Shown piece after piece: positions 14,589 through 34,908 of a stretch of 40,025 nucleotides of DNA. Numbering within the stretch: position 1 is the stretch's first letter; every line of letters begins with the position of its first letter. The stretch comes from an uncultured Anaeroplasma sp. (lineage in GTDB: Bacteria; Bacillota_I; Bacilli_A; Acholeplasmatales; Anaeroplasmataceae): assembly GCA_945919465.1 (NCBI GenBank), contig CAMEJG010000017.1, positions 1 to 40,025 of the forward strand, given 5' to 3'. The notes under the pieces were generated by a model, which did no database searches, was not told where the DNA came from, and saw nothing but the letters and a program-made list of their open reading frames with translations. A program made the translations under genes and the position numbers.

Positions 14589-14617
14589 TTGAATAAATAC
14601 TTTATTTGATGTATAAT
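14589..14617 (+). promoter_or_regulatory. Sigma-A-type promoter of the thioredoxin-like lipoprotein gene
   Basis: TTGAAT (14589-14594), a 17-bp spacer and TATAAT (14612-14617): the same hexamers and spacing as the promoter of the preceding giant gene. Expected transcription start is near 14624. An upstream in-frame ATG at 14606 overlaps this -10 region and cannot be the start. Confidence 0.8.
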
Positions 14618-14650
14618 AATCGTATATATTTATATTTGGGAGGATTAAAT

Positions 14651-15935: not shown

Positions 15936-15974
15936 AAGCATTTATACAAATTTAATTGTGTAAATGCTTTTTTT
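15936..15974 (+). terminator. Rho-independent terminator after the thioredoxin-like gene
   Basis: The stem AAGCATTTA (15936-15944) pairs with TAAATGCTT (15961-15969). It extends inward through TACAA/TTGTG with one G-T pair and is followed by a run of T. Confidence 0.85.
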
Positions 15975-16101: not shown

Positions 16102-16130
16102 TTTACATTATTAGGAAAAAGTGATATTAT
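16102..16130 (+). promoter_or_regulatory. Promoter of the MoxR-vWA-lipoprotein operon
   Basis: TTTACA (16102-16107), a 17-bp spacer and TATTAT (16125-16130). It lies in the 337-bp gap 15911-16247, which otherwise holds the upstream terminator, AT-rich sequence with no convincing ORF, and the leader described separately. No second clear promoter was seen between here and the terminator at 32212, so this one may drive about 16 kb. Confidence 0.65.
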
Positions 16131-16136
16131 ATACGT

Positions 16137-16247
16137 ATTAAAAACAAATATAAGGGTATTTAGATGAATTTTGTTCGAAAATCTTCATCAAAATTTAATT
16201 TATAATTCACGTTATTTGTTTTGAAATATTTTAGGGAGGATATACAT
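16137..16247 (+). promoter_or_regulatory. Candidate structured 5' leader of the MoxR operon
   Basis: The predicted leader of about 110 nt can close with a perfect 10-bp helix, AAAACAAATA (16141-16150) with TATTTGTTTT (16213-16222). This encloses a bulged hairpin, GATGA (16163-16167) with TCATC (16185-16189) plus ATTTT/AAAAT around a GTTCG loop. The ribosome binding site GGGAGGA (16234-16240) lies just outside the closing helix. This resembles a cis-regulatory leader, but it matches no riboswitch class I know and the helices are AT-rich. Confidence 0.35.
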
Positions 16248-17327
16248 ATGGGTAAAAAGTTGTTTAGAAGATATTATATTAGATTAGCTTTTCATGGTTT
16301 ACTTAATGCATTATTCTTAGGATTAGTTACTGGCTTTTCAGGATTAATGATTTCCTCAATTGTATGTTGGATTTGTAGCTATAAAGCTTTATGGTTATGC
16401 TTTACAATTTTTGGTGCATTAATTTTAGTTTCCACTCCAATTTATTATTTTGTATTTTATAAACCAAATACAAAAGAAATTGCAAAGAGAATTGATGAAA
16501 CTGGTTTAGAAGAACGTATGATTACAATGAATGAATTACAAAATGATGATTCATTTATTGCTAGAAAACAAAGAGAAGATGCATTAAAATGTTTAAGTAT
16601 AGTTGATGCTAAGCTTTTAAAGTTCGTATTTTCTGTTCCTGTGTTGATTGCATTAGGATGTACATGTGTATTAGGTTCTGCTGCAGCAGTAACTGAAGGA
16701 TTATATCAAGCAGATGTAATTAAATCTGGTAAGGATTTTTTTGATGATGCAACTGGAGAAAATAAAGTAGTATTCTATACTATTGAATATGATGTTAATG
16801 GCGATGGTATGATTGATGGTGAAGTCGTTCAAATAGTTGAAGAGGGTAAAAGTACTACTTTAGTAGAAGCTATTGCTGATGACGGTTTTGTATTTGTTAA
16901 TTGGGTTGATAAGGATGGAACAGTTTATGGTGAAGAGCCTGCTAGACTTGAAACTCAAGTTAAAGATGATTTAAAGCTTTACGCTCAATTCCAAGAAGCT
17001 CAATCACAAGATGGTGATGGTGAAGGCGAAGGTGAAGGCGAAGGCGAAGGCGAAGGTGAAGGTGAAGGTGAAGGCGAAGGCCAACCAAATGATGGTGAAG
17101 GTGATGGAAAAGGTCAAGGAAAACCAAATCCTAATCCACAACCAGGAGGAGGAGCTGGATCTTCATATGAATCAAATAGCCAAGTTATAGATGGTAAGAC
17201 TGATTATAGCGATGTATATGGTGATTCTCGTAATGATGCTATGACTGATATGAGTACTAATGGTGATAATTACTCAGGTGATAATAAAGATATCGCATCA
17301 GATTATTTTGATACTATAAAGAATTAA
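16248..17327 (+). CDS. Three-TM operon membrane protein with InlB-like outer domain and (GE)10 tract
   Basis: A 359-aa protein; the start ATG 16248 is chosen because GGGAGGA lies 7 bases upstream, whereas the longer frame begins at a TTG with no binding site. Hydrophobic segments are at about 14-42, 48-69 and 125-148. The cytosolic loop between TM2 and TM3 holds A-K-R-I-D-E-T-G-L-E-E-R-M, reminiscent of DUF4175-type proteins found in MoxR/vWA operons. After TM3 comes a module ending L-Y-A-Q-F, like the InlB/Flg_new repeats of the surface lipoproteins nearby. It is followed by ten Gly-Glu dipeptides, a Gly/Pro-rich linker and an Asp/Asn/Ser-rich tail. First gene of the operon. Role unknown; a membrane scaffold or a contact point for surface proteins is inferred. 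Confidence 0.8.
   Translation: MGKKLFRRYYIRLAFHGLLNALFLGLVTGFSGLMISSIVCWICSYKALWLCFTIFGALILVSTPIYYFVFYKPNTKEIAKRIDETGLEERMITMNELQNDDSFIARKQREDALKCLSIVDAKLLKFVFSVPVLIALGCTCVLGSAAAVTEGLYQADVIKSGKDFFDDATGENKVVFYTIEYDVNGDGMIDGEVVQIVEEGKSTTLVEAIADDGFVFVNWVDKDGTVYGEEPARLETQVKDDLKLYAQFQEAQSQDGDGEGEGEGEGEGEGEGEGEGEGQPNDGEGDGKGQGKPNPNPQPGGGAGSSYESNSQVIDGKTDYSDVYGDSRNDAMTDMSTNGDNYSGDNKDIASDYFDTIKN
17019..17081 (+). repeat. Hexanucleotide tandem repeat encoding (Gly-Glu)10
   Basis: Ten consecutive GGYGAA hexamers (GGT or GGC then GAA), ending with an extra GGC. Copy-number change would keep the frame and only alter linker length. A second short Gly/Asp/Glu stretch follows at about 17091-17115. Confidence 0.9.
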
Positions 17328-17376
17328 TTTTTTACAATATATAGAATTAAACAATTGGGAAAGAGGTTATTTAAAA

Positions 17377-18384
17377 ATGTTAGAAGAAAAGATTGTAGAA
17401 AAAGATGTTGAACAATTCAGTACACAATGTGAGAATATTTTCAAGCAAATCTCACGTGACGTTATCGGACAAAAGGAAGTTGTAGAGCATACAATTATTG
17501 CTATGATTTCTGGTGGTAACGTATTACTAGAAGGTGTTCCAGGAGTTGGTAAAACTCGTTTAGTACGTACTTTAGGTAGAGTATTTGATCTACCATTCTC
17601 TCGTATTCAGTTTACACCAGACTTAATGCCTGCCGATGTTACTGGTACAAACATTATTGTTAAAGATGAAAATGGAAATTCAACTTTCCAATTCCAACCA
17701 GGTCCAGTATTTAGTAATATCATCCTTGCCGATGAAATTAACCGTGCTACTCCAAAGACACAATCAGCATTACTTGAGGCCATGCAAGAGCATACAGTTA
17801 CTGTAATGGGTGTTTCTAGAAAGTTAAGCGAGCCATTCTTCGTATTAGCTACTCAAAACCCAATTGAACAAGATGGTACTTATCCATTACCAGAAGCTCA
17901 AATGGACCGTTTCATGTTTAAGCTTTTAGTACCAGATCCAAGTCTTGATGAATTAATGCAAATTGTTGATATGACTCAAAAAACAATGGCTGAAGTATCA
18001 GAAGCAGCATGTACAGGTGAACAATTACTTCAAATGAGAAAAACTGCTAATGCAATTCCATGTGCACAAGATGTATTAAAGTATGCAATGGTTCTTACTG
18101 CAGCAACTAGACCTACTGGTGAATATGCTAGTGAGGCTGCAAAGAAGTATGTACGTGTAGGTGCTTCTCCACGTGCTGGTCAAGCAATGATTTCAGCTGC
18201 TAAGGTTAAAGCTTTAATTTATGGTAGATACAATGTTGCTTATTCTGATGTAGAAGAATTAGCATGTCCAGTATTAAGACATCGTTTAAAACTTAACTTC
18301 GAAGCAGTTGCTGAAGGTGTTTCAGCAGATGAAGTTATTAAAATGATTGTTGATGAGGTTAGTAAGAAATATAAAGGAAAATAG
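17377..18384 (+). CDS. MoxR-family AAA+ ATPase
   Basis: A 335-aa protein starting at ATG 17377 behind AAGAGGT. Walker A is G53-V-P-G-V-G-K59-T; Walker B is L-A-D119-E120-I-N-R; sensor 1 lies in A-T-Q-N-P-I-E-Q; and the sensor 2 region has G-A-S-P-R-A-G-Q. Length and motif order are typical of MoxR proteins. These are cytosolic hexameric ATPases that pair with vWA-domain proteins, analogous to Mg-chelatase I/D, and act as chaperones for protein maturation or metal insertion. The next three genes encode DUF58 and vWA proteins, the classic partners. It sits 49 bp after the upstream membrane gene, consistent with one transcript. Confidence 0.96.
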   Translation: MLEEKIVEKDVEQFSTQCENIFKQISRDVIGQKEVVEHTIIAMISGGNVLLEGVPGVGKTRLVRTLGRVFDLPFSRIQFTPDLMPADVTGTNIIVKDENGNSTFQFQPGPVFSNIILADEINRATPKTQSALLEAMQEHTVTVMGVSRKLSEPFFVLATQNPIEQDGTYPLPEAQMDRFMFKLLVPDPSLDELMQIVDMTQKTMAEVSEAACTGEQLLQMRKTANAIPCAQDVLKYAMVLTAATRPTGEYASEAAKKYVRVGASPRAGQAMISAAKVKALIYGRYNVAYSDVEELACPVLRHRLKLNFEAVAEGVSADEVIKMIVDEVSKKYKGK

Positions 18385-18392
18385 TCTTATAG

Positions 18393-18413
18393 ATGCCCAT
18401 TAAATGTGGGCAT
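18393..18413 (+). other. Intergenic hairpin between moxR and DUF58 genes
   Basis: ATGCCCA (18393-18399) pairs with TGGGCAT (18407-18413) around a 7-nt loop, unusually GC-rich for this window. The sequence after it (TTATAATTAAAAAA) is a poor U-tract, so it looks more like a processing, stability or partial-termination element than a full terminator. Confidence 0.5.
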
Positions 18414-18450
18414 TTATAATTAAAAAAATATTTAGTATTGGAGAGAGCTT

Positions 18451-19350
18451 ATGAAAAGTACATATTTAAATGATCGATTCTTTAGTCGACTTGAGACTTT
18501 ATCTCTTAATTTAAAGTCTAATCTAACTGGATATTTTGGTGGAAAGCATCTCGTAAATACATATGGTCAAACAGTTGAATTTGCGGACTTTAGAGAATAT
18601 CAACTTGGTGATGATATTCGTCGTATTGACTGGAACCTATATAGCCGTTTTGAAAAGTATTTCTTAAAATTATTTACTGATGAAAGACAAATGCAAGTTC
18701 AAATTTTCATTGACGTATCTGCTTCAATGGGAAAAGATAATCCAGAAAAAGCAGCATATACAATTGGTACTGCAGCTGCTTTAGGATTTTTAGCAGTACA
18801 AAATATGGATAGACTATCTATTCATATTTGCGGTGGAAATAAGGCTGAAAATCCTTTTGGTGTAATTGTAGGAAAAAATGCATTTTTCAGAGCTATGGGT
18901 CAATTTGACAATATTGAATTTACTGAAGAAACCGATTTAGAAGCATGTATTACTACTTGTCCTAATACAGGAACAAAGAATGGTATAACAATAATCATTT
19001 CAGATTTCTTAACTGATTCTAACTGGAAAAAAGCAGTTGATTATTTATGCTATAAGAAAAGACAAGTATTATTAATTCAAGTTTTATCACCTGATGAGGT
19101 AGACCCTTCATTTGAAGGACGTATTCATTTAATTGACTCTGAAGCAGGAGATCTTGAAGATTCAAAGAATATGAAATTAAAGGTCACAAGAGGAATGATT
19201 AAAGCATATTTAGATGCCTTAGCAGATTTCCAAAATGATATCAAGACATTCTGTAGAAAAAGGGATGTTGGATTCTTTACTGTTAGAACAGACATTCCTA
19301 TTGAAAAAGAATTATTTGGTGATCTATTGAAAGAAGGTATAATGGTATGA
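18451..19350 (+). CDS. DUF58 / vWA domain protein
   Basis: A 299-aa soluble protein from ATG 18451 behind GGAGAGAG. The DUF58 signature D46-F-R-E-Y-Q-L-G-D-D-I-R-R-I-D-W61 is intact. It is followed by a vWA fold with MIDAS residues D88-x-S90-x-S92. No signal peptide or TM segment, so it is cytosolic and placed to bind the MoxR ATPase encoded just upstream. Its TGA stop overlaps the next start in ATGA (19347-19350), indicating translational coupling. In known MoxR operons DUF58 proteins are thought to be adaptors or co-chaperones; the client here is not known. Confidence 0.95.
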   Translation: MKSTYLNDRFFSRLETLSLNLKSNLTGYFGGKHLVNTYGQTVEFADFREYQLGDDIRRIDWNLYSRFEKYFLKLFTDERQMQVQIFIDVSASMGKDNPEKAAYTIGTAAALGFLAVQNMDRLSIHICGGNKAENPFGVIVGKNAFFRAMGQFDNIEFTEETDLEACITTCPNTGTKNGITIIISDFLTDSNWKKAVDYLCYKKRQVLLIQVLSPDEVDPSFEGRIHLIDSEAGDLEDSKNMKLKVTRGMIKAYLDALADFQNDIKTFCRKRDVGFFTVRTDIPIEKELFGDLLKEGIMV

Positions 19351-21329
19351 GTTTATTATATCCTTTAGGCTTAATTGCATTAATTGGTATTATTGTTTTA
19401 ATTATTATTTATATAATTAAACCAAATTATCAAACAAAGTTTATTTCTTCTACTTTTGTTTGGAAGCTAAGTCTTAAATACAGAAAGAAAAAGCTACCAA
19501 CAAGTAGATTAAGAAATATATTATTAATAATTTGCCAAGTTCTAATTTTAACATTATTATCTTTAATTATTGCATATCCTATTTATAGATATCAACAAGA
19601 GAAGCAACAAGATGAGACTATTCTTGTTATTGATTCTTCATCTAGTATGAGAACAGAATATGATAATGTTACAAGATTTGAAAGAGCTATTGAAAAGGCA
19701 AAGCAACTTTCTGATCAAACTATTGCTGAGGGTGGAGTTATGACTATATTAATAGCATCAGAAAATCCATCTACTTTAGTTGAAAAGTATGGCGAAGAAA
19801 GAAAAAATGAAATTATTGAGGAACTAGATTTATTAGTTGAAAGTGCAGAAACAGATTGTTCTTATGCAAAAGCAGATGTTGATAAGGCATTTGATATGTG
19901 TGATGATTTATTAACAAAAAATCCTACTGCTAAGGTTATTTTCTATACTGATACAAAATATAGTTATGTTCCTAAAAATGTTACAGTTGAAAGAATTTTT
20001 GATGAAACTGAAAAGAATTTTGCAATTTTAGATGCATATGTTACTTTTACTGAAAACTATTATGATATCAGTGTTGAATTACAGGCTTATGGATATGAAG
20101 CAAATGCAGTTGCTAAAGAAGTTGAAGTAAGCATTGTTGTTGATGGTGCTAATGCTAAGGATAAGAATGATAATGGTCAAATTTTAAGATTCAGTAAAGC
20201 TATTCAAGTTGAACCTGGATACAAATCTAAATTAATTTTTAAAGGATCAGAATCTGGTTTAACTGTAAGTTCTAATACTGAAATTAAAGACTTATCAGAT
20301 GCAGAAAGATTTAGTTCTTTTAGTTCTATTACTGTAACAATTGATGAAGAAGATTCATATTCTTTAGATGATCATTTCTATATTTATGGTGGTCAAAAGG
20401 AAGTAATAAAGATTCAATATTCATCTGATAATCCAAATATATTCGTTAATGGTGTTTTATATACAATTCAAAATTACTATGCTGATACATATGATATTCA
20501 AATAACTGAAGAAAAACACGGAAAACCAGAATTAAAAGGTTTTGATTATTATATTTTTGAACATAAAATTCCTGATAAACTACCAACAGATGGTGTTTGT
20601 TTAATTTTTGATCCACTATCATCACCTACAAATGGTGGTTATAATGCTGAAGCATTATTAGGTGATAGTTCAACTGAGATTCATATGGAAATTGATGATG
20701 GTGCTGTAGATCATCCTTTAATAAAAGATATTAAAGTAGATAATCTTTTTGTAACAAGATATGTAAAGGTTAGTTATGATGAATCTTATACTCCACTTAT
20801 TAATGCTGCTGGTTCAGAAAATCCTTTATTATTATATAAGGATAATGGAAATTCAAAAATATTCTTAATGAATTTTAGTGTTCACTACTCTAATTTAGTT
20901 GTTAGTAAAGAATTCCCATTCTTATTAAATAATATTATTAAATATTATACTCCAAGTATAATTGAATCTAATGCATATGAAATTGGTGATACAGTTTCAT
21001 TTAATACAAGAGGACAAACTCTTGAATTAGTAGAACCAGATGGTACAAAAACATCATTTGAATCTTTCCCAGCTTCAATTGTTGTTAATAAGCCTGAAAG
21101 CTATACAATTTCACAAAATACTTATTTTGGCAAGGAAATTACTGAAACATTCTATGTTAGAACTCCTAAGAGTGAAAGTGATATTTTTGCAGTTGAAGAT
21201 GCATTAAAGGATTTATATTATGAAGATACAATTATTGATCTTTATGATGATTTAGTATTGTATTTTGCAGCAGCTTTAGTTGCCCTTGAATTCTTTGAGT
21301 GGTGGCTAAAGAATAGAGATCGAGTTTAG
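19347..21329 (+). CDS. BatA-like membrane protein with vWA domain
   Basis: A 660-aa protein starting at the ATG that overlaps the upstream stop. Two N-terminal TM segments (about 5-26 and 58-80) flank a basic stretch, as in the BatA / aerotolerance-regulator N-terminal domain. A vWA domain follows with MIDAS D96-S-S98-S-S100. A long beta-rich extracytoplasmic region reaches to about 630, then a C-terminal TM (about 632-655) ends in a short basic tail. vWA domain and beta region probably face outside. Coupled to the DUF58 gene and 17 bp before the next vWA gene, so the products are likely subunits of one membrane complex. Confidence 0.9.
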   Translation: MSLLYPLGLIALIGIIVLIIIYIIKPNYQTKFISSTFVWKLSLKYRKKKLPTSRLRNILLIICQVLILTLLSLIIAYPIYRYQQEKQQDETILVIDSSSSMRTEYDNVTRFERAIEKAKQLSDQTIAEGGVMTILIASENPSTLVEKYGEERKNEIIEELDLLVESAETDCSYAKADVDKAFDMCDDLLTKNPTAKVIFYTDTKYSYVPKNVTVERIFDETEKNFAILDAYVTFTENYYDISVELQAYGYEANAVAKEVEVSIVVDGANAKDKNDNGQILRFSKAIQVEPGYKSKLIFKGSESGLTVSSNTEIKDLSDAERFSSFSSITVTIDEEDSYSLDDHFYIYGGQKEVIKIQYSSDNPNIFVNGVLYTIQNYYADTYDIQITEEKHGKPELKGFDYYIFEHKIPDKLPTDGVCLIFDPLSSPTNGGYNAEALLGDSSTEIHMEIDDGAVDHPLIKDIKVDNLFVTRYVKVSYDESYTPLINAAGSENPLLLYKDNGNSKIFLMNFSVHYSNLVVSKEFPFLLNNIIKYYTPSIIESNAYEIGDTVSFNTRGQTLELVEPDGTKTSFESFPASIVVNKPESYTISQNTYFGKEITETFYVRTPKSESDIFAVEDALKDLYYEDTIIDLYDDLVLYFAAALVALEFFEWWLKNRDRV

Positions 21330-21346
21330 TTTGGGGGGATGAGATT

Positions 21347-24253
21347 ATGGGTAATTTTCGTATAAACTTCACTCATCCGTGGTTATTATTGTTGTTAGTA
21401 GCAGCAGTGTTACTTACAATGATTCCTCATTTGAGAATAGCAAAGAAATATAGAAGAAATAGAAATAGAATTACTTCTTTAGTATTACATATGATTGTTT
21501 TAGTTTTATCAATTCTTGTTTTATCAGGTATTTCATTTGACTATACCCAAAAGAATGATAAAAATGAAATCATTTTACTAGTCGATGTTTCTGACTCAAG
21601 TATAAAATATGAGGAAGAAAGAGATGAGGTTGTTGAAACAATTCTTGATTTTGGTAAATATGACGGATATAAAATTGGTATTGTAACTTTTGGTTTTGAT
21701 CAAGAGTATGCAGTTCCATTTACTAATGATGTTAGTAGTATTTATTCACGTTATAAAGCAGCAGAGTTACCTGATACAACAGCAACAGATATTGCTGCTG
21801 CATTAAATTATACAAAGTCATTATTTACAAATCTTGAGACATCTAAGATTGTATTAATAACAGATGCAAAAGAAACTGATGAGAATGCTATGAATGCTAT
21901 TCGTGCAGTTTCTGCTAATGGTACAAAGGTTGATATTTGTTATGTTACTGAATCTGAGGCTAATGCTGATGTTCAAGTTTATGATATTGTTCAACCTAAT
22001 ACACATATTAGTGTTGAAAATGAAGTTGAATTTACTTTTAAAGCAAAATCAACTGCTGAACAAGAAGTTGATTTTGAGATTTGGGATAATGGTATTAGAA
22101 AAGATCTTGTATCTTTAAAACTAATTGAAGGAACTGGTACATATTCTTTCAAGCATGTATTTTCTGAAACTGGTATACATGAATTAAAAGTAGTAGCTGT
22201 TGGAATAAATGATGAAGTTACAGAAAATGATGCATATCTTACTTATGTTAACATTGAAACATTCAATAAGCTATTGGTAATTGAAGGTTATGACGGACAA
22301 AGTGATGCTCTTGAGTCTTTATTAACAAATAAGGATGAATATGAGGTTACAGTTGTTGGACCAGATGAGTTTGATACTCTTCCAACTACAATTCATGATT
22401 TAAGAAAGTTTGACCAGGTAATTCTTAATAATATCGCTAATGAAGATTTACCTACAAATATTGTTCCAGGTGCTGAAAAGCAAGTTGATTTTGTAGATGT
22501 TTTATATGAATATGTAAATGTTTATGGAGGTGGTCTATTAACAGTAGGTGGTTTAGATGAAACTGGTGAAAAAGCACATGCTTATAATAGACAAGATATG
22601 GTTGATACTAAGCTTCAGGAAATGCTTCCAGTAGAGGCTATTAATTATAAGCCACCAGTTGGTATTATGATAGTAGTCGACGTTTCAGGATCAATGTCAG
22701 GTGATGCTGGAAATGGTAAAACCTTCCTAGAAGCAGCTATTATGGGTTGTCAAACACTTCTTGAAGGTCAAATTCTATCTGAAAGAGATATGGTTGGTGT
22801 AATGACACTTACTTCTTATGAAGAACAAAGAGTTGTTTTAGGTTTGACACCAAGAACTAAGGAAGCTAAAATTAGAGAAGCAATTGAGTCATTAATTGAT
22901 GAACCAGGAGGAGGAACAGACTTCTATCCTGCAATCGATAAAGCTGCTCAACTATTAAGAGCTCAGACCAATTTAGCATATAAGCATATTGTTGTTATTT
23001 CAGATGGTGGTGCTGGAGATCAAGATGGAGAAAGTGGTTATCAAGTTTTTGCTGAATTATGTAATAAAATAGCAATTGAAGATAATATTGTAACTGATAT
23101 TTTTACTTTAGGTAATACTTATTCTGATGGTAATAAAGATTCTTGTATTGCTGCATGTGAAGGTTATGGTGATAATGCTGGTTTATTAAAAGGTAGTGCT
23201 ATTTTCCTTGGAAATAAATCAGTAGAAAGTATTGGAAGTGAACTTAAAGAAATCTTTACTTCAAAAGAAGTTACAGAAGTAATGAATGAAGATTTTAAAG
23301 CATCTGTAGCAAATGAATTTGATTTTAAAAATATTTTTGCTAATGTTGATCTAGAAGTTTCACCATATGATAATACTACAAAAACTTTGCCATTTAAATT
23401 TTCTAAGTTCATTGGTGTAAAGGTAAAAAGTTCTGATTATCTTGTTTTAAAAGGAGAATATAATGTACCTATTTATGCTCAATGGAAATTTGGTGAAGGT
23501 ACTGTTGGAAGTCTAATGGTTGCATTAGATAATGTTATGGCTCCAGAATTATTAGATCCAAATTCTGAAGGTAGTACATTACTAAAGAATATTATAAATG
23601 AGCTAATGCCAATTAGAAATATTCATTCTTCTGAAATAGAAGTTAATTTAAGAGAAGATAATTATATTAATCAAATAAGTGTATATACTACTTTAGAAGA
23701 AGGCGAGAGACTAGAAGGTAAGATCACTAATTTATCTGATGACTCAGCTGAAGTAGTATCATTAAATAATCTTCCTGAGGAAGGAACAAGTTTAAGAAAT
23801 CTTTCAACTTATGTTACTTTAGCAATGACTGAAAATAATGATTATAGTAGAGCTAACTTTATTATAAAAGAACCTGGTATTTATTCTATTGAAATTACTA
23901 AATATAATAGTGCTGGTGAAAAGGTTGGAGATTCTACAACAGTTTATAAAGATTTAGCTTACTCAAAAGAATATGATACAAATCTATTAGCTAATGATTT
24001 CAATATTGAAGAATATCTTGAAAAATTAGCTGAAAGAGGTAAAGGTACTGTTATTGAAGATAATGAAGATCCACATGAGATTTTCGATACATTCGTACCT
24101 ATAATAAATAAATCTTTTGATCCTAGAATTCTATTCATGATTATAGCTATCGTATTATTCTTAACTGATATCGCTGTAAGAAAGTTCAAGTTCAAATGGC
24201 CTCATGAATTAATTAGAGAATATAAAAAGAAAAAAGAAGAAAGTAAAAAATAA
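21347..24253 (+). CDS. Large double-vWA membrane protein with glutamine-amidotransferase-like domain
   Basis: A 968-aa protein from ATG 21347 behind GGGGGGATGAG. Two N-terminal TM segments (about 11-27 and 43-62) precede a first vWA domain with a D80-V-S82-D-S84 MIDAS. A beta-sandwich region and a class I glutamine-amidotransferase-like fold follow (Y-G-G-G-L-L-T-V-G-G, then M-L-P-V-E-A). There is no Cys-His-Glu triad that I can identify, so it is probably non-catalytic. A second vWA domain has a complete MIDAS (D445-V-S447-G-S449-M, with T524-D). A C-terminal TM (about 930-948) ends in a Lys-rich tail. The GATase-like plus vWA pairing is known in large membrane vWA proteins near MoxR genes; the additional N-terminal vWA makes this two metal-binding sites per chain. 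Confidence 0.9.
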   Translation: MGNFRINFTHPWLLLLLVAAVLLTMIPHLRIAKKYRRNRNRITSLVLHMIVLVLSILVLSGISFDYTQKNDKNEIILLVDVSDSSIKYEEERDEVVETILDFGKYDGYKIGIVTFGFDQEYAVPFTNDVSSIYSRYKAAELPDTTATDIAAALNYTKSLFTNLETSKIVLITDAKETDENAMNAIRAVSANGTKVDICYVTESEANADVQVYDIVQPNTHISVENEVEFTFKAKSTAEQEVDFEIWDNGIRKDLVSLKLIEGTGTYSFKHVFSETGIHELKVVAVGINDEVTENDAYLTYVNIETFNKLLVIEGYDGQSDALESLLTNKDEYEVTVVGPDEFDTLPTTIHDLRKFDQVILNNIANEDLPTNIVPGAEKQVDFVDVLYEYVNVYGGGLLTVGGLDETGEKAHAYNRQDMVDTKLQEMLPVEAINYKPPVGIMIVVDVSGSMSGDAGNGKTFLEAAIMGCQTLLEGQILSERDMVGVMTLTSYEEQRVVLGLTPRTKEAKIREAIESLIDEPGGGTDFYPAIDKAAQLLRAQTNLAYKHIVVISDGGAGDQDGESGYQVFAELCNKIAIEDNIVTDIFTLGNTYSDGNKDSCIAACEGYGDNAGLLKGSAIFLGNKSVESIGSELKEIFTSKEVTEVMNEDFKASVANEFDFKNIFANVDLEVSPYDNTTKTLPFKFSKFIGVKVKSSDYLVLKGEYNVPIYAQWKFGEGTVGSLMVALDNVMAPELLDPNSEGSTLLKNIINELMPIRNIHSSEIEVNLREDNYINQISVYTTLEEGERLEGKITNLSDDSAEVVSLNNLPEEGTSLRNLSTYVTLAMTENNDYSRANFIIKEPGIYSIEITKYNSAGEKVGDSTTVYKDLAYSKEYDTNLLANDFNIEEYLEKLAERGKGTVIEDNEDPHEIFDTFVPIINKSFDPRILFMIIAIVLFLTDIAVRKFKFKWPHELIREYKKKKEESKK

Positions 24254-24290
24254 TATAGATTTATAAAATAAATTCTATAGGGGAGGGCGT

Positions 24291-27089
24291 ATGAAAAAGT
24301 TAAAATATTTTTCTTTGATGTGCTTATTGCTATTCGTAGGTATGTTTTTAGCATCATGCAATAACAATTCACTAATTAGCCCATCTAATTTACAGGTGGA
24401 TGTTGAAAATAGATTAACTTGGGATAAAGTTAAAGAAGCTAGAAGCTATGTTATCGAAGTGTCTGCTGTTGGTAGTACTGCAGAAGATGCTGTAAAAGAA
24501 TTCACAACTAGAAAAACATATTATTCTTTATCAAAGCTTGATGAGGGTGATTATGTAATTAGAATGAAATCTGTTGGAGATATTGAAGGTAATGTTGTTT
24601 CTAATTGGTCTGATACAATAGATTTTCATAGAGATTATGAATCAGGCTGTACTTATAAATTAATTAATAATAATACTGCTTATCAAATTACAAATGGTAG
24701 AGCTACAGTTGGTGATATTCATATTGATGCAATATATCGTGGTAAACCAGTAATTAGTATTGCTGATGGTGCTTTTAAGGGTAATACAAGTTTAACTAGT
24801 ATTACTCTAGCAGATAGTATCGTTTCAATTGGCAGTAATGCATTCTATAATTGTACTGCATTAACTTCTATAAAGCTTCCTTCTAAGCTTCAAAGCTTAG
24901 GGGAAGCAGCTTTCCAAAGATGTAAATTATTAACTTCAATTATAATTCCAGATACAGTAAAAACTATTGAAGCTAATACATTTGCATATTGTTATGGATT
25001 AAATGATATTAAAATTCCGAATACTGTTACAAGTATTGGTGAAAAGGCATTTTATAATTGTACTAGTATTACAAGTTTTACATTGCCTACTGAGCTTACA
25101 ACATTAGGCGCTTCTGCATTTGCTGGAAATGAGGCACTTAAGACAGTTAAGATTAATAGTAAATTGACTGCTATTCCTGATTATTCTTTCTATCAGAATA
25201 AAGCATTAACTACTGTTGAATTTGCTGAGGAAAATAATGTTTTATCTATAGGTACTTTTGCATTTAGTGAATGTTTATCATTAAAAGAGATAAATGTTCC
25301 TGAGGGAGTATTAAAAATTGATGCTGCTGCATTTGCCGCATCTACTGATTTAGAGAAAGTTTCTTTACCTAATACTTTAGTAAAATTAGGTCAAAGATGT
25401 TTTGATGGAACTGCCATTTATGATATTCAAGAAAAAGAAGGATATCAATTAATTTATGTTGATAATTGGATTGTAGGATATATTCCTGGTGAAAATCCAA
25501 TTGTAAAATTAAATAAAGATGTTGTTGTTTCAACAACAGAGGGTCTATGTGATTATTTATTCTTTGATCAACCAAACTTAGCAGTTGTTAATTTGCCAAA
25601 TTCTGTAAGAACAATTGGTGAATATTGTTTTTATGCTTGTCAAGCAGCATTATATTCAGTAACTTGTAATCCTGAATATGTTTGGAATAATGCTTTTGGT
25701 GAGTGCTCAGTATTAAGTTCTGTTTCTATTGGAGAAAGATTATTATATATTGGAAATTATGCATTCTATAACTGTAAAGCATTAGGTAAAACTACAGATA
25801 TTACATTGCCTGATACTGTACAAAAGATTGGTACACGTGCATATCAAGGTAGTGGATTATGGGAAAGAGAAGAAACAAAAGATGAAAATGGTGGTTTAAT
25901 TTATGCTGGAAATTGGTTAGTAGGTGTTGTAAAAGACAGTGTTTCTTATGAATTAAGATCAGGTACTATTGGTGTATGTGATTATTGCTTCTATAAAAAT
26001 GCTGCTGTATCTACTATCAGTGGATTTAGCAGTGTTAGATACATTGGATATGGTGCATTCTACAGCTGCTCAGCATTAACTTCTATTGCTTTAGGAAGAT
26101 ATATTAAGAGCCTAGATGATTTTGCATTCTATAAATGTGTTGCATTAAACTCTGTTGAATTACCATATAATTTTACTGAAATTGGATATAAATCTTTCTA
26201 TAAGTGTACTTCTCTTATTGAAATGGATTTTTCTGAAACTAAACTAAGTTATATTGATGATTATGCATTCTATGGATGTAGTGCATTACAAACTATTGTT
26301 TTCCCAGAAGAAACATTAGAGTATATTGGTGAGGCTGCATTCTATAAGAATGAGAATCTTTTAAGCTTAGATTTACCTAATAGCCTAACAACATTAGGTA
26401 ATAAAGCATTCTCTAAATGTACTAGATTAGAATCATTAACAATTGGTTCTGGTTTAACATACATTCCAGAGCATGCATTTAATGCTACTGGATTAACTGA
26501 AGTGGTTATTCCAGAAAATATTAAAACAATTGGAAAGTATGCTTTCTATAAAGCTACAGGTATAACAAATGTAGTATTTTCTGAAGGACTTGAAAATATT
26601 AGTGCTTATGCATTCTTAGGTCTAGAAAATATTACTGAGTTAAATCTTCCAAGCTCAATTGAGTATGTTGCTAGCTTTGCATTTAAGGGCTGTACAGGAT
26701 TGACATCAATTTTCTTAAGTAAAGAAATTGATGAGGTTGCTCAGCATGCATTCTATGGATGTTTAAATTTAACTATTTATACAGATGCAGAAAGTTTACC
26801 TGAAAATTGGCATAAGATGTATAATTCTTCATATCGTCCAGAAGTATTTGGATGTGTTATGGAGGATGGTTATGTAAAGGAATTAACAATTGTTGAAGGA
26901 ACCTTCGGCCATGTTAGTTCAAATTCAATATTAGCTGATCCATTAAGAGATGGTTATACTTTTGGTGGATGGCAAATGACTGTAGTGGATGAAAATGGGG
27001 TTGAATCTACTATAGTAGTAAAGACTGCTGATATTCCAGCATTAATAGTTGGAAATAAGCTTGTCGCAATTTGGAATGCTTTAAGTTAA
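24291..27089 (+). CDS. BspA-LRR lipoprotein (932 aa) in the MoxR operon
   Basis: ATG 24291 follows GGGGAGGG. The signal peptide ends in lipobox F-L-A-S-C23. One FN3-like module (about 30-115, with L-T-W-D-K-V-K-E-A-R-S-Y) precedes LRR_5 repeats from about 145 to 835. The repeats are broken twice by longer inserts with the motif N-W-(I/L)-V-G and then G-(L/V)-C-D-Y. The C-terminus (about 858-932) is an InlB-like module with G-Y-T-F-G-G-W. Thus it uses the same parts as the 2903-aa protein but in a different order, with the InlB module at the end. It starts 37 bp after the double-vWA gene with no obvious promoter or terminator between, so it is probably on the same transcript. It is likely a surface adhesin and a candidate client of the MoxR-vWA complex (inference). 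Confidence 0.92.
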   Translation: MKKLKYFSLMCLLLFVGMFLASCNNNSLISPSNLQVDVENRLTWDKVKEARSYVIEVSAVGSTAEDAVKEFTTRKTYYSLSKLDEGDYVIRMKSVGDIEGNVVSNWSDTIDFHRDYESGCTYKLINNNTAYQITNGRATVGDIHIDAIYRGKPVISIADGAFKGNTSLTSITLADSIVSIGSNAFYNCTALTSIKLPSKLQSLGEAAFQRCKLLTSIIIPDTVKTIEANTFAYCYGLNDIKIPNTVTSIGEKAFYNCTSITSFTLPTELTTLGASAFAGNEALKTVKINSKLTAIPDYSFYQNKALTTVEFAEENNVLSIGTFAFSECLSLKEINVPEGVLKIDAAAFAASTDLEKVSLPNTLVKLGQRCFDGTAIYDIQEKEGYQLIYVDNWIVGYIPGENPIVKLNKDVVVSTTEGLCDYLFFDQPNLAVVNLPNSVRTIGEYCFYACQAALYSVTCNPEYVWNNAFGECSVLSSVSIGERLLYIGNYAFYNCKALGKTTDITLPDTVQKIGTRAYQGSGLWEREETKDENGGLIYAGNWLVGVVKDSVSYELRSGTIGVCDYCFYKNAAVSTISGFSSVRYIGYGAFYSCSALTSIALGRYIKSLDDFAFYKCVALNSVELPYNFTEIGYKSFYKCTSLIEMDFSETKLSYIDDYAFYGCSALQTIVFPEETLEYIGEAAFYKNENLLSLDLPNSLTTLGNKAFSKCTRLESLTIGSGLTYIPEHAFNATGLTEVVIPENIKTIGKYAFYKATGITNVVFSEGLENISAYAFLGLENITELNLPSSIEYVASFAFKGCTGLTSIFLSKEIDEVAQHAFYGCLNLTIYTDAESLPENWHKMYNSSYRPEVFGCVMEDGYVKELTIVEGTFGHVSSNSILADPLRDGYTFGGWQMTVVDENGVESTIVVKTADIPALIVGNKLVAIWNALS

Positions 27090-27132
27090 AAAAATCGATA
27101 TAGATTTTTGTAATAAAAAGGAAGGTATTTTT

Positions 27133-30100
27133 ATGAAAAAATTAAAAAAAGGTTTATTTACATTTTTTGCTAGTACTTCCCTTGCTACAAGCTTGATGCT
27201 TGTTTCATGTGGAACACCTAAATATACTTATGCATTTGATGTAAATGGCGGTGAATCACAAGAAAATGTTGAGTTGGAGGAGGGTCAATCTTATAATTTA
27301 CCTAATCCAACAAAAGAAGGATATTTATTCTTAGGATGGTATGATAATGCATCATTCTCTGGAGATCCTATTACAAGTATTACAGCTTCAAAGGATATGA
27401 CATTCTACGCTAAATGGGTAAAATGTGCTACTTTAAAGTTAGATTTAAATGGAGCAACTTTATCATCAGGAGAGACTTCACTAACTGTTGCTGTAGGTGA
27501 AAAGCTATCTGATGCTTTAGCTTCATATACTCCAAAATTAGGAGAATTAGGTTTTGCTGGTTGGTATTTAAATGGTAAGCCACTAGCTGATAGCGACGTA
27601 ATGCCTGAAGGTGAAGTTACTGTTAAGGCTATGTTTGGTCAAAAGTATTTTATTGAATATTATATTAATAAGGTTGGTTCTACAACTGAATTTGAACTAT
27701 ATGATACTGTTGAAGAAGCAGCTATGATTGGAGATACTGTTACACCTGAACCAGATTTAGTTGGATGTACTTTTGATAGTAAGAATACAGGAAATGTCAC
27801 TTCAATTGTAGTTAGCAGCAATACAGATTCAAATGTAATAAAATTCTATTATTTAAGAAATGAAGTTAAATATACATTTAATGCTAATTATCCAGTTACA
27901 CCTGAAGATGAAGAAACAGCAACTAAAGAAGAATCAACTCTTCAATTTGGTCAAAAAATTAAATTCCCTAGCTTTGCTTGTAAGGGATATGAAATTGTTG
28001 GTTGGTCTAGAACCTTAAATGGTGGTATTGTTTATGAAAATAAAACATTATTAGAGTCTGCATATAATGGTGAAACTAAAGTTGAGCCATATACAGCTGA
28101 AAGAAACAGTGAATTATATGCTGTATGGAAAAAATGCCATACTGATATGCGTGGCGGAAGTGATGAAATTTATTTATTTAATAGTTCATCAGATACCATT
28201 TATATGAAGCGTGATGGTGTATATTTTGTTGGTAAATATGATGCATTAAAGGGTACATTTAGATTTACTGACCCAGATAATGAAGATCATTATTTATATG
28301 GTAAGATTATTGATGATTCCACATTTGCCTATGAGGATGAGAATAATATTGCAACATATAGTTATTATGATATGGCTCAAGGTGGTGTAAATACTAATAT
28401 CACAATTAGCTTCGATAAATTTGATGGTATTAAATATATCGATAAAACAGATCAAGTTCAAATTTCAAACGGTACATATACTGTTGATGCTGATGGATAT
28501 TATACAGCTACATTTACTGATGGACCTTTAGCAGGAACAACTATCGAATTTATGGTTGCAACCCTTGGTACTACAAATGCATTCCTTCAAAAGAATGAAG
28601 AAGATGTAGCATTAGGATCAATTCCTATCTATAGTGTTAATGAAAAATTTGAATTAGCTGATTCTAAATTAGCAATTGCATTAGATGGTTATGGAACAAC
28701 AACCTTCGGTGGAAATACTTATTTTTATTCATTCTTTACAGAAGATAATACAAAATATTTATCTTTAGAGGATGAATATGGTAATCGTGCATACTTATTT
28801 AAGTTAACTACAAATTCTAATAATGAACCAATTTATATTCTATTTAATTCTTCATTATCATTTGAAGCAACTTTAGAAGATGGTACTGATACTTTAACAC
28901 TTGATGGTTCTTATACTGCAACATTAACTAAGGGAACTACTGAAACTACAGGTAAGTTCTATTATGAAACAACAGCCTTAGGATATGTTGTAATTACAGC
29001 TAAATTTGGTGATACAACTCATAAATATTTTGTAAATCATTATCAAAATGAAGAAACATTTGAAGAAACATTTACATACAAAGAAATAGATATCAATTAC
29101 CATGAATATTATTATTATGGAGCTGATGGACAAATGTATAAAGCACCATTAATCGTTATTGAGGATGCAACTAATGCTACATTATATGGAATGACATCTG
29201 ATAATGAATTTGTTGTTGTATCAAAGGGTACATATACTGTTACTGATGGAGTATATACATATACAGCAGTTACTTTTGATGATGCTGGTATGAATGCAAT
29301 TTCAGATTTAATTAATCTTAAAGATGTTAAGTCTGTGACTTTCACTACTTTAACAAAAAATAATCATGATTTCACATTCTGGTCAACATATACTACAAAG
29401 AGTGGTAAGGTTGTTGAAGTAGGTAGAAAGTATTCAATTCTTGATGAAGAAGGAAATGCTACAGGTAAATATGTCCAAATAATTGGCGATTCAGCAGTTT
29501 ATTTTGATGGTACTAAGAAGTATGATTGCGAATATATGGAACAAGATGATATCTTAGGATTCGCTTATAGAACAGATGAAGCAAGCGAAGAATATGAAGT
29601 ATTCTATGTTTCATTTGATGATAAAACATCAACATGTGTATTCTGTGAATATCCATATGTAGTATATGCATATACTGATGGTGCTGCAGATAAAAATACT
29701 TATTTATCATTTGATAAATATGGTAATGTAACTTATAATGTCGTTACAACTGATGATAATAATAAGCAAGTTACAACAACATTAAATGGTACTGTTGAGA
29801 AGGTTTTTGAGGATGATGGATATACTCAGGCTACATCACCTACTGGAAATTATATTTTCCAATTTACATTCACAGATTCAACAGAATTAAAGAACTTTAA
29901 ATATATTCAAGCTTCAGATTCAAGTAATTATTATTTCTTTAAAGAAAATAATGATTATGTTGGAACATATTCAACTGGAAATATAAATATTACATTAGAT
30001 GGTTATGAGTATTACGCTGATGTATATGTTCAATCAAGTGGAAATGAAGAAGAATTTATGTATTATATTGATGAAGAAAATGAAGCTATCATTCTATATA

Positions 30101-32181
30101 ATTCAAGCTATTCAATGACATTTAATATTACTGATAAGGCTGAGAAGAGAGTTGAAATGCTTGGTGTTGAAAAGGGCGAATATTTAGTATTAGATAATCA
30201 ACAGGTTAAATATGCGGTTGAACTTGATGGAAAATATAATGCCAAGGTTTATAGCTATGATCCAGAAACTGATACTAAGACTTTAATTGATGGTAACGCA
30301 ACATATGACGTAACTCCTACAAACGATTACACTATTACATATAAGAATGGTAATGTCACAAATTATATAACTGGAAATATCTTTACATATAATACAGGTT
30401 CAAATTCAACAACTACTGTATTTGTAGTTTCACATGAAGATGTTTCTAACAAATATATTGACGCAACAGACTGGTCAATTCTTGATCTTGATGCTTATGG
30501 TAATGCTTCATTCTATCAAGCAGATGGTAAGGTTGTAACTGGTACTTATGTAATTATTAATGATTCATTATTATATTTTAGAGATTATGATCAAACTATA
30601 GAAGTGCTTTATGAATACGATATTGAAGGATTAATGACAAAGGTTTCATATAAAGAGAAGAGTTATTTCAGTGAAAATCTAGATTCAATTATTTTCTATG
30701 GTACTGGTACTGTTAGTATCAATGGAGAGGAAGGATTCTATTTTGTTGATTCAAATGGTGTTGTAACATTATATTTAATTTCTGAAAATGGAAATAAGTA
30801 TGGATTTGAAGAAGTTGAATTTGGTGAATTAACTCCTAATCTAGAATATAAGGGTATTACATATAATTATTATGCTGGTGTTGCTGTTCCATTTGAAAGA
30901 AATGAAACAAATACTGAAATTTATCCAGTATTATCAGAAGATGGATATTCAACATTTGGCACAGTCAACTTTACTCCATCAGGAGAAGAATTTGAAGTTG
31001 ATGGTCAAATTATTGTTAATACTTATACACAAAAATTAGATGCTGATAAGAATCCTGTTCTTGATGAAAATGGAAAGCCTGTTTATGAAGAAACATCTAA
31101 GCCATATTCTTGTACAGTTGTAAGAGAAAAGGATGGAGATAAATTTGTTGAATATGTTTTAGTTAATAACTTTAAGGTATTTATTGATTCTTCATTCTCA
31201 TTAAATTCTGATGGTGAAAGTACATCTACTTATAATGTAATTGGCTTAAGCTACATTGAAGCATGTTATGAAAGTGATATTCTTAATCAAATTCAAATGA
31301 TCTATGAATATTATGGAAAGGATTTATCTGATTTAGCTACTGAATATGGTGGAATAATCTTCTATCGTGATTTTGATGAAGAGGGTAATAAACTAACTGA
31401 TTACATTACTAATACAATTAATTCTGAAGTTTTCAATGTGTATACTGACTCTTTAGGTGCTCATTTAACTTTCGATAAAGCTTCTTATACTGAAGATGAA
31501 AGTGGATATATTATTACTGAAACTAAGGGTTCTGATGGATATACTTATAAATTCTATCTACAATCTTCTTATATTACAAAACCTAAGTACATGGTAGGTA
31601 TGAATATTGCATATCTAACAAGAGTTAATGAATTTACATTTGGTGAATATACAGTTGTTACTGAACAAGTTGTATCAAATAACTATTCAAATGAAGTAGC
31701 TGAGGGTACATTAATTGGTGAACTATTCAGCGCTGGTATTAAGCATAATGGTGAATTTGTAGAAATTAATGATTTAATCGTTGATGAAAATGGTGTTTAT
31801 TATGCTATTACAAGAGGAGATACAGAAACAACTTATTACAAGATTGATATTACTGGAATTCAAGATGTTACATTTGATAATGGTGAGAAAGTAGTTAATT
31901 TAGCTCCAATCTATACTAATGTTGAATTTGCTGTATCAACAGCTGTTACATATAAAAACACTGATGGCGATTATATTGAAGTTTTAGCTGATAATAACGC
32001 TAAATACTTATATTATAATGGTAAAACAGTATATTATGATTCAGTATCATATAACTCTGAAACAAATACATATACATTTACTGAAGAATTAACAAATGAA
32101 GTTAAAACTTATACAGTTGTTGTTGCTGAAGATAACACAATTACAGTTACTGCAGTTTCAACTCCAAAAGAAAGTGAATAA
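27133..32181 (+). CDS. Giant InlB-repeat / beta-repeat lipoprotein (1682 aa)
   Basis: ATG 27133 follows AAGGAAGG. The signal peptide ends L-V-S-C26. Without any linker come InlB/Flg_new repeats (about 30-95 and 97-170, with G-Y-L-F-L-G-W-Y and T-F-Y-A-K-W), a MucBP-like module (about 171-246, F-I-E-Y-Y-I-N to V-I-K-F-Y-Y-L-R-N), and another InlB repeat (about 247-335). The remaining 1350 residues are an unfamiliar, Tyr/Thr/Asp-rich beta repeat in which short blocks such as L-D-x-Y-G-N-A, G-T-Y or G-x-Y and Y-T-x-T-F-T-D-G recur. There is no C-terminal anchor. Last gene of the operon, 43 bp after the LRR lipoprotein and closed by a strong terminator. It is probably an extended surface stalk; ligand unknown. 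Confidence 0.92.
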   Translation: MKKLKKGLFTFFASTSLATSLMLVSCGTPKYTYAFDVNGGESQENVELEEGQSYNLPNPTKEGYLFLGWYDNASFSGDPITSITASKDMTFYAKWVKCATLKLDLNGATLSSGETSLTVAVGEKLSDALASYTPKLGELGFAGWYLNGKPLADSDVMPEGEVTVKAMFGQKYFIEYYINKVGSTTEFELYDTVEEAAMIGDTVTPEPDLVGCTFDSKNTGNVTSIVVSSNTDSNVIKFYYLRNEVKYTFNANYPVTPEDEETATKEESTLQFGQKIKFPSFACKGYEIVGWSRTLNGGIVYENKTLLESAYNGETKVEPYTAERNSELYAVWKKCHTDMRGGSDEIYLFNSSSDTIYMKRDGVYFVGKYDALKGTFRFTDPDNEDHYLYGKIIDDSTFAYEDENNIATYSYYDMAQGGVNTNITISFDKFDGIKYIDKTDQVQISNGTYTVDADGYYTATFTDGPLAGTTIEFMVATLGTTNAFLQKNEEDVALGSIPIYSVNEKFELADSKLAIALDGYGTTTFGGNTYFYSFFTEDNTKYLSLEDEYGNRAYLFKLTTNSNNEPIYILFNSSLSFEATLEDGTDTLTLDGSYTATLTKGTTETTGKFYYETTALGYVVITAKFGDTTHKYFVNHYQNEETFEETFTYKEIDINYHEYYYYGADGQMYKAPLIVIEDATNATLYGMTSDNEFVVVSKGTYTVTDGVYTYTAVTFDDAGMNAISDLINLKDVKSVTFTTLTKNNHDFTFWSTYTTKSGKVVEVGRKYSILDEEGNATGKYVQIIGDSAVYFDGTKKYDCEYMEQDDILGFAYRTDEASEEYEVFYVSFDDKTSTCVFCEYPYVVYAYTDGAADKNTYLSFDKYGNVTYNVVTTDDNNKQVTTTLNGTVEKVFEDDGYTQATSPTGNYIFQFTFTDSTELKNFKYIQASDSSNYYFFKENNDYVGTYSTGNINITLDGYEYYADVYVQSSGNEEEFMYYIDEENEAIILYNSSYSMTFNITDKAEKRVEMLGVEKGEYLVLDNQQVKYAVELDGKYNAKVYSYDPETDTKTLIDGNATYDVTPTNDYTITYKNGNVTNYITGNIFTYNTGSNSTTTVFVVSHEDVSNKYIDATDWSILDLDAYGNASFYQADGKVVTGTYVIINDSLLYFRDYDQTIEVLYEYDIEGLMTKVSYKEKSYFSENLDSIIFYGTGTVSINGEEGFYFVDSNGVVTLYLISENGNKYGFEEVEFGELTPNLEYKGITYNYYAGVAVPFERNETNTEIYPVLSEDGYSTFGTVNFTPSGEEFEVDGQIIVNTYTQKLDADKNPVLDENGKPVYEETSKPYSCTVVREKDGDKFVEYVLVNNFKVFIDSSFSLNSDGESTSTYNVIGLSYIEACYESDILNQIQMIYEYYGKDLSDLATEYGGIIFYRDFDEEGNKLTDYITNTINSEVFNVYTDSLGAHLTFDKASYTEDESGYIITETKGSDGYTYKFYLQSSYITKPKYMVGMNIAYLTRVNEFTFGEYTVVTEQVVSNNYSNEVAEGTLIGELFSAGIKHNGEFVEINDLIVDENGVYYAITRGDTETTYYKIDITGIQDVTFDNGEKVVNLAPIYTNVEFAVSTAVTYKNTDGDYIEVLADNNAKYLYYNGKTVYYDSVSYNSETNTYTFTEELTNEVKTYTVVVAEDNTITVTAVSTPKESE

Positions 32182-32211
32182 TTTTTAATTTTTCATAATA
32201 TACCCCAAATA

Positions 32212-32250
32212 AAAAGCACACGGTAGATAGTTTACTGTGTGCTTTTCTAA
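32212..32250. terminator. Bidirectional terminator between converging genes
   Basis: AAAAGCACAC (32212-32221) pairs with GTGTGCTTTT (32237-32246), extending inward by GGTA/TACT with one G-T pair. T-runs flank it on both strands, so it can end the operon on the plus strand and the DUF2752 gene on the minus strand. Confidence 0.88.
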
Positions 32251-33970: not shown

Positions 33971-33974
33971 TTAA

Positions 33975-34004
33975 AAAAATGCTGATTAATATCAGCATTT
34001 TTTA
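33975..34004. terminator. Terminator after the 246-aa unknown gene
   Basis: Perfect 12-bp stem AAAAATGCTGAT (33975-33986) with ATCAGCATTTTT (33991-34002) and a TAAT tetraloop. T-runs occur on both strands. Confidence 0.88.
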
Positions 34005-34035
34005 ATTAGATAATACTATCCCTTAATTTTTTTAA

Positions 34036-34063: not shown

Positions 34064-34067
34064 CATT

Positions 34068-34897: not shown

Positions 34898-34908
34898 CAA
34901 CTATTTGA

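Follow-up and report, generated by a model that had tools for sequence, protein, structure and literature searches.

The gene run and its proteins

We analysed a stretch of 40,025 nucleotides (hereafter, the window) from an uncultured Anaeroplasma sp., which is one entire 40 kb contig (CAMEJG010000017.1) among the 89 that make up a genome assembly of 2.1 Mb (GCA_945919465.1). Its plus strand carries a run of seven open reading frames (ORFs; 16221–17327, 17377–18384, 18451–19350, 19347–21329, 21347–24253, 24291–27089 and 27133–32181), which encode, in this order, a membrane protein referred to as gene 1, a MoxR-type AAA+ ATPase, a DUF58 protein, a BatA-type membrane protein with a von Willebrand factor A (vWA) domain, a membrane protein with two such domains (double-vWA), a lipoprotein with BspA-type leucine-rich repeats (LRRs) and a lipoprotein with Flg_new (InlB B-repeat) and all-beta repeats (Flg/beta-repeat lipoprotein). 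The intergenic gaps are, in order, 49, 66, −4, 17, 37 and 43 bp, and the ORF coordinates thus bear out an earlier claim, made from the sequence alone, of seven same-strand genes with spacings of −4 to 66 bp. In one clade of related loci (type A), the MoxR and DUF58 genes, those of the three membrane proteins, an LRR lipoprotein gene behind them and a giant LRR gene in front form a near-fixed unit. Gene calls, made on draft genomes, were simple ORF calls, and the lipobox pattern was a loose one of our own making.

The likely start codon of gene 1 is the ATG at 16248, which follows AGGGAGG, rather than the TTG at 16221. Its product (16248–17327) appears to combine a cytosolic helical part (GLEERMITM...) with an outer Flg_new domain, placed at residues 186–256 by Pfam. 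Profile scans assigned it to no named family; a DUF4175 match at the corresponding position had an E-value of 0.25 and is not claimed. The MoxR protein (17377–18384) matches AAA_3 (2.2e-62), AAA_lid_2 and Protein Data Bank (PDB) entry 2r44 (6.8e-75), and its gene is the sole AAA_3 match in its own genome. Its assignment is based on AAA_3 and the Walker motifs, and on the adjoining vWA-domain neighbours DUF58, BatA and double-vWA; among type A MoxR proteins, the Walker A pattern GxPGxGKT was present in 53 of 54 and the Walker B stretch ADEINRA in 54 of 54. The DUF58 protein (18451–19350; Pfam DUF58, 2.6e-31) retains the DxSxS motif of the metal-ion-dependent adhesion site (MIDAS) and had no PDB sequence match at E 0.1. 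Hydropathy revealed no membrane span in MoxR or DUF58, the latter being the only vWA candidate without spans among the proteins of the run.

By hydropathy and charge (positive-inside rule), the BatA-type protein (19347–21329; Pfam BatA and VWA_2) and the double-vWA protein (21347–24253; two VWA domains) each have three hydrophobic, predicted transmembrane (TM) spans, with the vWA domains outside and, in the latter, a cytosolic RKFKFKWPHE tail. The BatA-like protein BB0173 has a periplasmic vWA domain and three TM helices by experimental topology (PMC5700661). Structure matches of the double-vWA protein include the vWA domains of adhesins such as LapA and SpaC, and a GATase1_like stretch scored below its Pfam cut-off.

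The LRR lipoprotein (24291–27089; 932 aa) comprises a lipobox, an N-terminal domain, BspA-type LRRs (LRR_5, 3.1e-150) and an end that looks, by eye, like a divergent Flg_new domain. It matches the TpLRR entry 6mlx (7.8e-28), and a likeness to the adhesin HupY/LrrG lies below the cut-off. LRR_5 repeats together with a lipoprotein signal place it among the BspA-type LRR lipoproteins, and the loose lipobox was found in 61 of 76 relatives. The last protein (27133–32181; 1682 aa) was classed as an InlB B-repeat lipoprotein on the basis of its Flg_new match (4.7e-15), a match to InlB 2y5p (0.0012) and a lipobox read from the sequence. Residues 333–1100 were modelled as nearly all beta, with a predicted local distance difference test (pLDDT) score of 89.6; no fold could be assigned to this body, as the Foldseek rows shown had a query template modelling score of at most 0.14 and the best VIA-align hit was to pieces of OspA (58 residues, Z 5.3). 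In the whole genome, LRR_5 matched about eight reading frames and Flg_new about nine, with three of each on the window contig.

Conservation of the unit in related loci

Related loci were collected by a scan with the double-vWA protein alone (six peptide patterns), which was blind to LRR genes. The best 80 of 120 confirmed stretches were kept, almost all of them from Clostridia of the gut, with one from Anaeroplasma; two were too short, which left 78 loci of sufficient length, and annotation employed profiles built from the window's proteins. The next same-strand gene 3´ of the double-vWA gene encoded a BspA-type LRR protein in 76 of 77 loci, the sole exception (L132) having DUF58 there instead. 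The gap between both genes was at most 144 bp in 76/76 cases, with a 4-bp stop/start overlap in 15, and 72 relatives had an LRR protein in this slot of similar length to that of the window. On the other side of the core, an LRR gene lay directly before gene 1 in 47 of 48 loci (exception, L121); 44 of these 47 genes run off the 10 kb flank, and as far as visible they mostly exceed 1,400 aa. Compared with a background of LRR genes elsewhere in the same loci of only 4 in 138, these figures show that the pairing is non-random.

The outer neighbours were not conserved, their best family reaching 11 of 65 loci, and the double-vWA proteins themselves had a median pairwise identity of 42% and fell into 67 clusters at 70% identity (n = 78). 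Gene order has therefore been kept against strong divergence. The largest outer-neighbour family (the one in 11/65 loci) is secreted-looking and was seen 3´ of the Flg/beta-repeat gene in L056, L057, L058, L062, L065 and L068; it is possibly one more optional component. From a pattern-free class search, 13 additional loci were read, 11 of them distant loci from Bacilli (L179–L189) and two close ones (L190 and L191), both of which presented LRR gene, core, LRR lipoprotein and Flg/beta-repeat lipoprotein in unchanged order. As regards conserved residues, the MIDAS positions D80, D173, D178, D445, S447, S449, T524 and D553 of the double-vWA protein were present in 78/78 sequences, S82 in 77 and T147 in 76; those of DUF58 (D88, S90, S92) in 61/61; and D96 and S98 of BatA in 74/76 and 76/76, respectively. 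The InlB-like outer domain that the sequence-only reading had recognised on gene 1 was found in 51 of 52 type A loci; it was not seen on gene 1 of type B loci.

In a midpoint-rooted tree of MoxR, DUF58 and double-vWA from 64 loci, types A (53 loci), B (9) and C (2) each formed one clade, with supports of 0.996, 1.0 and 0.998, respectively; one of the ten type B loci (L006) was left out because of a split gene. Of the nine MoxR loci known from the family of the window, eight belong to type B, together with two second loci in Clostridia genomes. Type B keeps the order gene 1-MoxR-DUF58-BatA-double-vWA, and its slot is occupied in 10/10 loci by another lipoprotein family of 467–586 aa, most members of which end in WLFAC. 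In type C, from another family, the slot of L031 holds a lipoprotein that combines Flg_new repeats with a CotH kinase domain (4010–5881), and a homologue of it precedes gene 1 in L029 (4430–6394). All 11 distant loci retain MoxR-DUF58-BatA-double-vWA; L180 has gene 1 inserted behind DUF58, and in L183 BatA occupies two frames. The gene following their core is on the opposite strand in four (L179, L180, L183, L184); only short same-strand genes of up to 227 aa follow in L181, L182, L187 and L188; L185 has the type B lipoprotein, and L186 and L189 have other same-strand lipobox genes (480–1652 aa). In L189 (10880–19505), three same-strand lipobox genes of 650, 1652 and 495 aa follow the core, the first with a Flg domain, which makes a further lipoprotein-paired type possible. 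Thus, the anticipated adjacency of lipoprotein genes to the MoxR block was observed in type A and failed in the distant Bacilli loci, where 0/11 had an LRR gene in the slot. A pairing with LRR genes general to all loci with this core is thereby ruled out: since these loci, and the second locus L148 of a type A genome, mostly lack partners, pairing with lipoproteins characterises some clades, and pairing with LRR genes type A.

The Flg/beta-repeat lipoprotein is a looser partner. As the second gene 3´ of the double-vWA gene it was present in 44 of 69 loci; another large same-strand gene (at least 986 aa) occupied this position in 15, and neither was found in 10. The only one of these alternative genes that was scanned, in L108, carries Big_3. 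Across the order, the Flg/beta-repeat model matched in 120 of 160 genomes; among the matches listed, most concerned the Flg part, a whole-model match occurred in the window's own genome only, and the next best covered the first ~310 of 1649 model positions. In the 45 type A genomes, 24 of 26 matches with E = 0 shared a contig with a double-vWA match, and the remaining two adjoin an LRR lipoprotein at a contig end. Lower-scoring paralogues away from MoxR loci (L173, L174, L175) adjoin, in 3/3 inspected cases, a thioredoxin-like lipoprotein of AhpC-TSA/TlpA type (~550 aa; two of the three confirmed by Pfam), and exclusivity of the Flg/beta-repeat lipoprotein to MoxR loci is weakened accordingly. 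Of the earlier proposal that both lipoproteins are clients of a chaperone-like MoxR maturation machine, the genomic pairing is thus borne out for the LRR protein in type A and is weaker for the InlB-like one, while their role as clients would be one of several readings of these data. Thioredoxin-like lipoprotein genes also occur in the window (14606–15910) and, 3´ of the slot lipoprotein, in the type B loci L007, L016 and L019.

Multiple double-vWA genes were present in several of the 45 genomes that carry such loci. Genome G544 has seven, or eight if the end fragments on contigs C28 and C73 are separate genes, and two MoxR genes were found in it. Each of the seven modules that were read has an LRR gene of its own (7/7), whereas DUF58 accompanies five and MoxR two; six of these LRR genes sit 3–49 bp before gene 1, and one behind the double-vWA gene. 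The copies are 37–57% identical in BatA and 24–40% in the LRR proteins, and so look like old paralogues and not like strain mixtures. L060, L114 and L147 are further modules in which gene 1 and BatA are not separated by MoxR and DUF58. The genome of L147 (G540) has one MoxR gene elsewhere, that of L060 (G507) shows MoxR pieces at contig ends only, and a search of the genome of L114 (G521) found no MoxR. Where the contig of L060 ends (20689–20801), the start of a MoxR gene directly follows the Flg/beta-repeat gene, a hint that this genome may carry modules arrayed in tandem.

Transcription signals, flanking genes and history in the window lineage

An intrinsic terminator at 15936–15969 (plus strand; z −4.8), between the upstream thioredoxin-like gene and gene 1, supports a new transcription unit that begins at gene 1. 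At the other end, a hairpin at 32212–32246 (z −6.1) is common to the convergent genes; with its flanks it folds at −22.1 kcal/mol, and 0/200 shuffles were as good. The strong terminator that had been proposed at 32212 thus holds on folding, though its Ts lie inside the stem and it is absent from the list of the terminator scan. By contrast, the proposal of one promoter at 16102 and no clear internal one found no support. The candidate at 16102–16130 (TTTACA-17-TATTAT, plus strand, with TG before the second hexamer) is not better than chance, two sites inside the unit (22844 and 29711, both 11/12) outscore it, and the region contains 108 promoter-like sites compared to 125 ± 12 in shuffles. Between MoxR and DUF58, a strong RNA hairpin of 13–14 bp with no T run (18382–18453, plus strand; z −3.38, 0/200 shuffles) is perhaps a processing or partial-stop element that sets the levels of MoxR versus DUF58.

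The related gene set reaches further left than 16102, where two further giant LRR genes lie on the plus strand. The first (2–5572) has its 5´ end cut by the contig end and encodes a BspA-type protein with LRR_5 in 16 stretches; its C-terminal pattern (AF.GWTS.QT...) resembles, by eye, that of the giant LRR protein encoded 5´ of gene 1 in several relatives. A second contig of the same genome (L176, G000:C69) carries a copy of this gene with 78% identity over ~4.1 kb (window 1–4060). The second (5754–14465) encodes a lipoprotein of 2903 aa with a lipobox, Flg_new repeats (3) and BspA-type LRRs (LRR_5, 17 stretches). The thioredoxin/TlpA-like lipoprotein gene that follows (14606–15910, plus strand; Redoxin 1.2e-14), with the terminator on its 3´ side, is probably a transcription unit of its own.

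MoxR proteins of this kind (E ≤ 1e-60) were found, the own genome included, in 9 of the 55 family genomes and in 11 of the 160 order genomes; within the genus they occurred in 3 of 27, a fourth match being weak. In the core tree, the window's core falls within type A, where L093 is its neighbour (support, 0.967). Since it is nested among Clostridia loci, the cluster was likely acquired horizontally in the window lineage. RNase Y is single-copy in the window's genome, and 77–86% identical in 24 genomes of the genus; of two further ones, one gave a 66% partial match and one no match. In 8 of 12 sister stretches, RNase Y is preceded by a homologue of the gene at 33230; of the remaining four, two are shorter than 5 kb. 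None of the cluster's proteins gave a match next to the RNase Y block in these 12 stretches (four of them <5 kb). The conservation of RNase Y and of the neighbour at 33230 places the right-hand part of the contig within the genus, which counters misbinning of the contig; an assembly chimaera left of 33230 may nevertheless have occurred. The run at 33230–39796 reads hypothetical-hypothetical-RNase Y-YmdB-SpoVS-MiaB-YlbF-GNAT, and its second hypothetical gene was matched in 2 of the 12 sister stretches.

Interpretation and comparison with known systems

Our preferred reading, to which we assign a probability of roughly one half, is that the locus encodes an envelope machine of MoxR, DUF58 and vWA proteins, Bat-like in kind and specialised for BspA-type surface lipoproteins, which it would probably mature or assemble, a step that we infer. 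Several observations weigh against it. Adjacency, as read from gene order, would fit permanent subunits as well as clients. The distances of the double-vWA and LRR proteins correlate (Spearman 0.63, 73 loci), yet this is confounded by shared ancestry and shows co-inheritance, not contact. The RKFKFKWPHE stretch just inside the last span of the double-vWA protein is nearly invariant in the 80-locus set, a value inflated because KFKFKWPH was among the search patterns; in pattern-independent copies the tail varies (RKFRFKWLHE, RKFRFTSFTK). The third MIDAS position of BatA, S100, is Ser in only 62/76 sequences. The distant loci keep the core with no LRR gene in the slot, and at L148, where a type A genome has a second, distant core, the slot holds a 362 aa gene without lipobox. 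The Flg/beta-repeat protein is missing from its slot in 25/69 loci, with paralogues adjoining thioredoxin lipoproteins instead. Finally, the missing MoxR genes of the G507 and G521 modules may lie in assembly gaps.

A less probable, though still serious, explanation is a standing envelope complex, in which the LRR and Flg/beta-repeat lipoproteins would be permanent outer subunits (adhesin or sensor heads) and MoxR/DUF58 would cycle grip, release or signalling. It would suit the one LRR gene per membrane-vWA module in the seven diverged modules of G544, the Flg domain borne by gene 1 itself (51/52), the adhesin vWA domains LapA and SpaC among the structure matches, and the likeness of the LRR protein, below cut-off, to HupY/LrrG. 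Studied MoxR/vWA pairs such as NorQD, however, act on a client enzyme (PMC13036017, PMC9976466). Improbable, in turn, is that the genes are merely an envelope island kept together by co-expression or co-transfer, with MoxR not acting on the lipoproteins. Apparent acquisition by the window lineage, with a core nested among Clostridia loci, the absence of cluster proteins beside the RNase Y block in the sister stretches, the rarity of such MoxR proteins in the order (11/160) and the more distant cores without adjacent LRR genes are all compatible with it; but order has been kept at a median identity of 42% while the outer neighbours vary, and within type A, as within type B, a single lipoprotein family fills the slot. 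BspA and InlB-repeat genes are multi-copy in gut Firmicutes, and the Flg/beta-repeat model, mostly its Flg part among the matches listed, is matched across the order (120/160); chance adjacency in a genome rich in such genes is nonetheless refuted by the presence of only ~8 LRR_5 frames in the own genome, by 76/77 versus 4/138, and by the unconserved outer flanks, which leaves it a negligible probability.

Under the preferred reading of a lipoprotein-dedicated machine, the mechanism may be sketched by analogy with NorQD, in which the vWA partner NorD enters the MoxR ring, the ATPase remodels a linker and NorQ works through NorD (PMC13036017), and in which the NorD MIDAS is required for client activity, not for NorQ binding (PMC9976466). 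A MoxR hexamer would act, via DUF58, on the cytosolic faces of the gene 1, BatA and double-vWA proteins, with three well-conserved cytosolic stretches, the RKFKFKWPHE tail, the BatA loop and the GLEERMITM segment of gene 1, as candidate contacts. The ATP-driven change would be passed to the outer vWA domains, whose MIDAS sites would hold acidic sites on the lipoproteins and so help these to become folded, metal-bound or assembled on the cell surface. The choice of LRR protein would rest with the vWA pair, several vWA pairs per cell could draw on the same MoxR and in part on the same DUF58, and the Flg/beta-repeat lipoprotein would serve as an optional second partner. More tentatively, the multi-module genomes suggest a motor-and-cartridge system, in which one or two MoxR motors drive many vWA cartridges, each carrying and specifying its own LRR (or, in a sister clade, other) surface lipoprotein, so that the repertoire expands without duplication of the motor. 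If so, a single ATP motor can serve many surface modules, and cartridge duplication alone would expand the ATP-actuated or ATP-matured surface receptors of a gut bacterium.

Among known systems, the Bacteroides aerotolerance (Bat) operon (MoxR-DUF58-BatA-BatB-BatC/D/E) is similar in that genes for MoxR, DUF58 and a protein with the BatA N-terminal domain and a vWA domain form one run here, and in that the double-vWA protein resembles BatB (NCBIfam NF047506 at 6e-9, below cut-off; PDB 3ibs_B, 140 columns at 2.4 Å). It differs in that the seven genes, in Pfam scans of these alone, gave no match to BatD or to the tetratricopeptide repeats of BatC/BatE, and in that window-type loci, found here in gut Clostridia and Bacilli, carry gene 1 and the LRR and Flg/beta-repeat lipoproteins. 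MoxR-vWA ternary conflict systems combine a MoxR-vWA core with a variable third component (VMAP, iSTAND, FtsH or beta-propeller; PMC7159879), and their bpMoxR profile does match the window's MoxR above cut-off (38.7 versus 27 bits). However, AAA_3 fits far better (209 bits), surface lipoproteins take the place of the third component, and Pfam and PADLOC scans named no effector or beta-propeller domain in the seven genes. PADLOC gave MoxR three weak matches (best, DolB at 1.4e-7) and the other six genes none, which does not amount to an anti-phage system.

NorQ/NorD and CbbQ/CbbO likewise pair a MoxR-class ATPase with a vWA partner, whose MIDAS is needed in NorD (PMC9976466). These have one vWA partner and an enzyme client, whereas here there are two membrane vWA proteins with their vWA domains outside, a DUF58 protein and surface lipoproteins. 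The MxaL/MxaC system with MoxR, for the maturation of methanol dehydrogenase, concerns an extracytoplasmic enzyme and to our knowledge includes no LRR protein. It shares vWA proteins thought to act with a MoxR, of the MRP type (PMC11432383), and differs in client class. BspA/TpLRR surface proteins have the LRR_5 repeats in common with the window's protein, and none was found described with a MoxR machine.

Loci of the MoxR/DUF58/BatA kind occur widely, and for most of their membrane vWA proteins we know of no target. In the literature within reach, which leaves out most subscription journals, no MoxR system with leucine-rich repeat, BspA or InlB proteins was found described. The Bat-like MoxR/vWA core is already known; its near-fixed pairing with BspA-type LRR lipoproteins appears to be new and is confined to one clade. 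A clade in which the machine is fixed beside one surface protein family provides a concrete partner candidate for these vWA proteins; type B, whose slot is filled by a different lipoprotein family, predicts a second. Should the preferred reading be true, it would outline a possible route to the giant LRR surface proteins of uncultured gut Clostridia, and these proteins may contact the host or other microbes.

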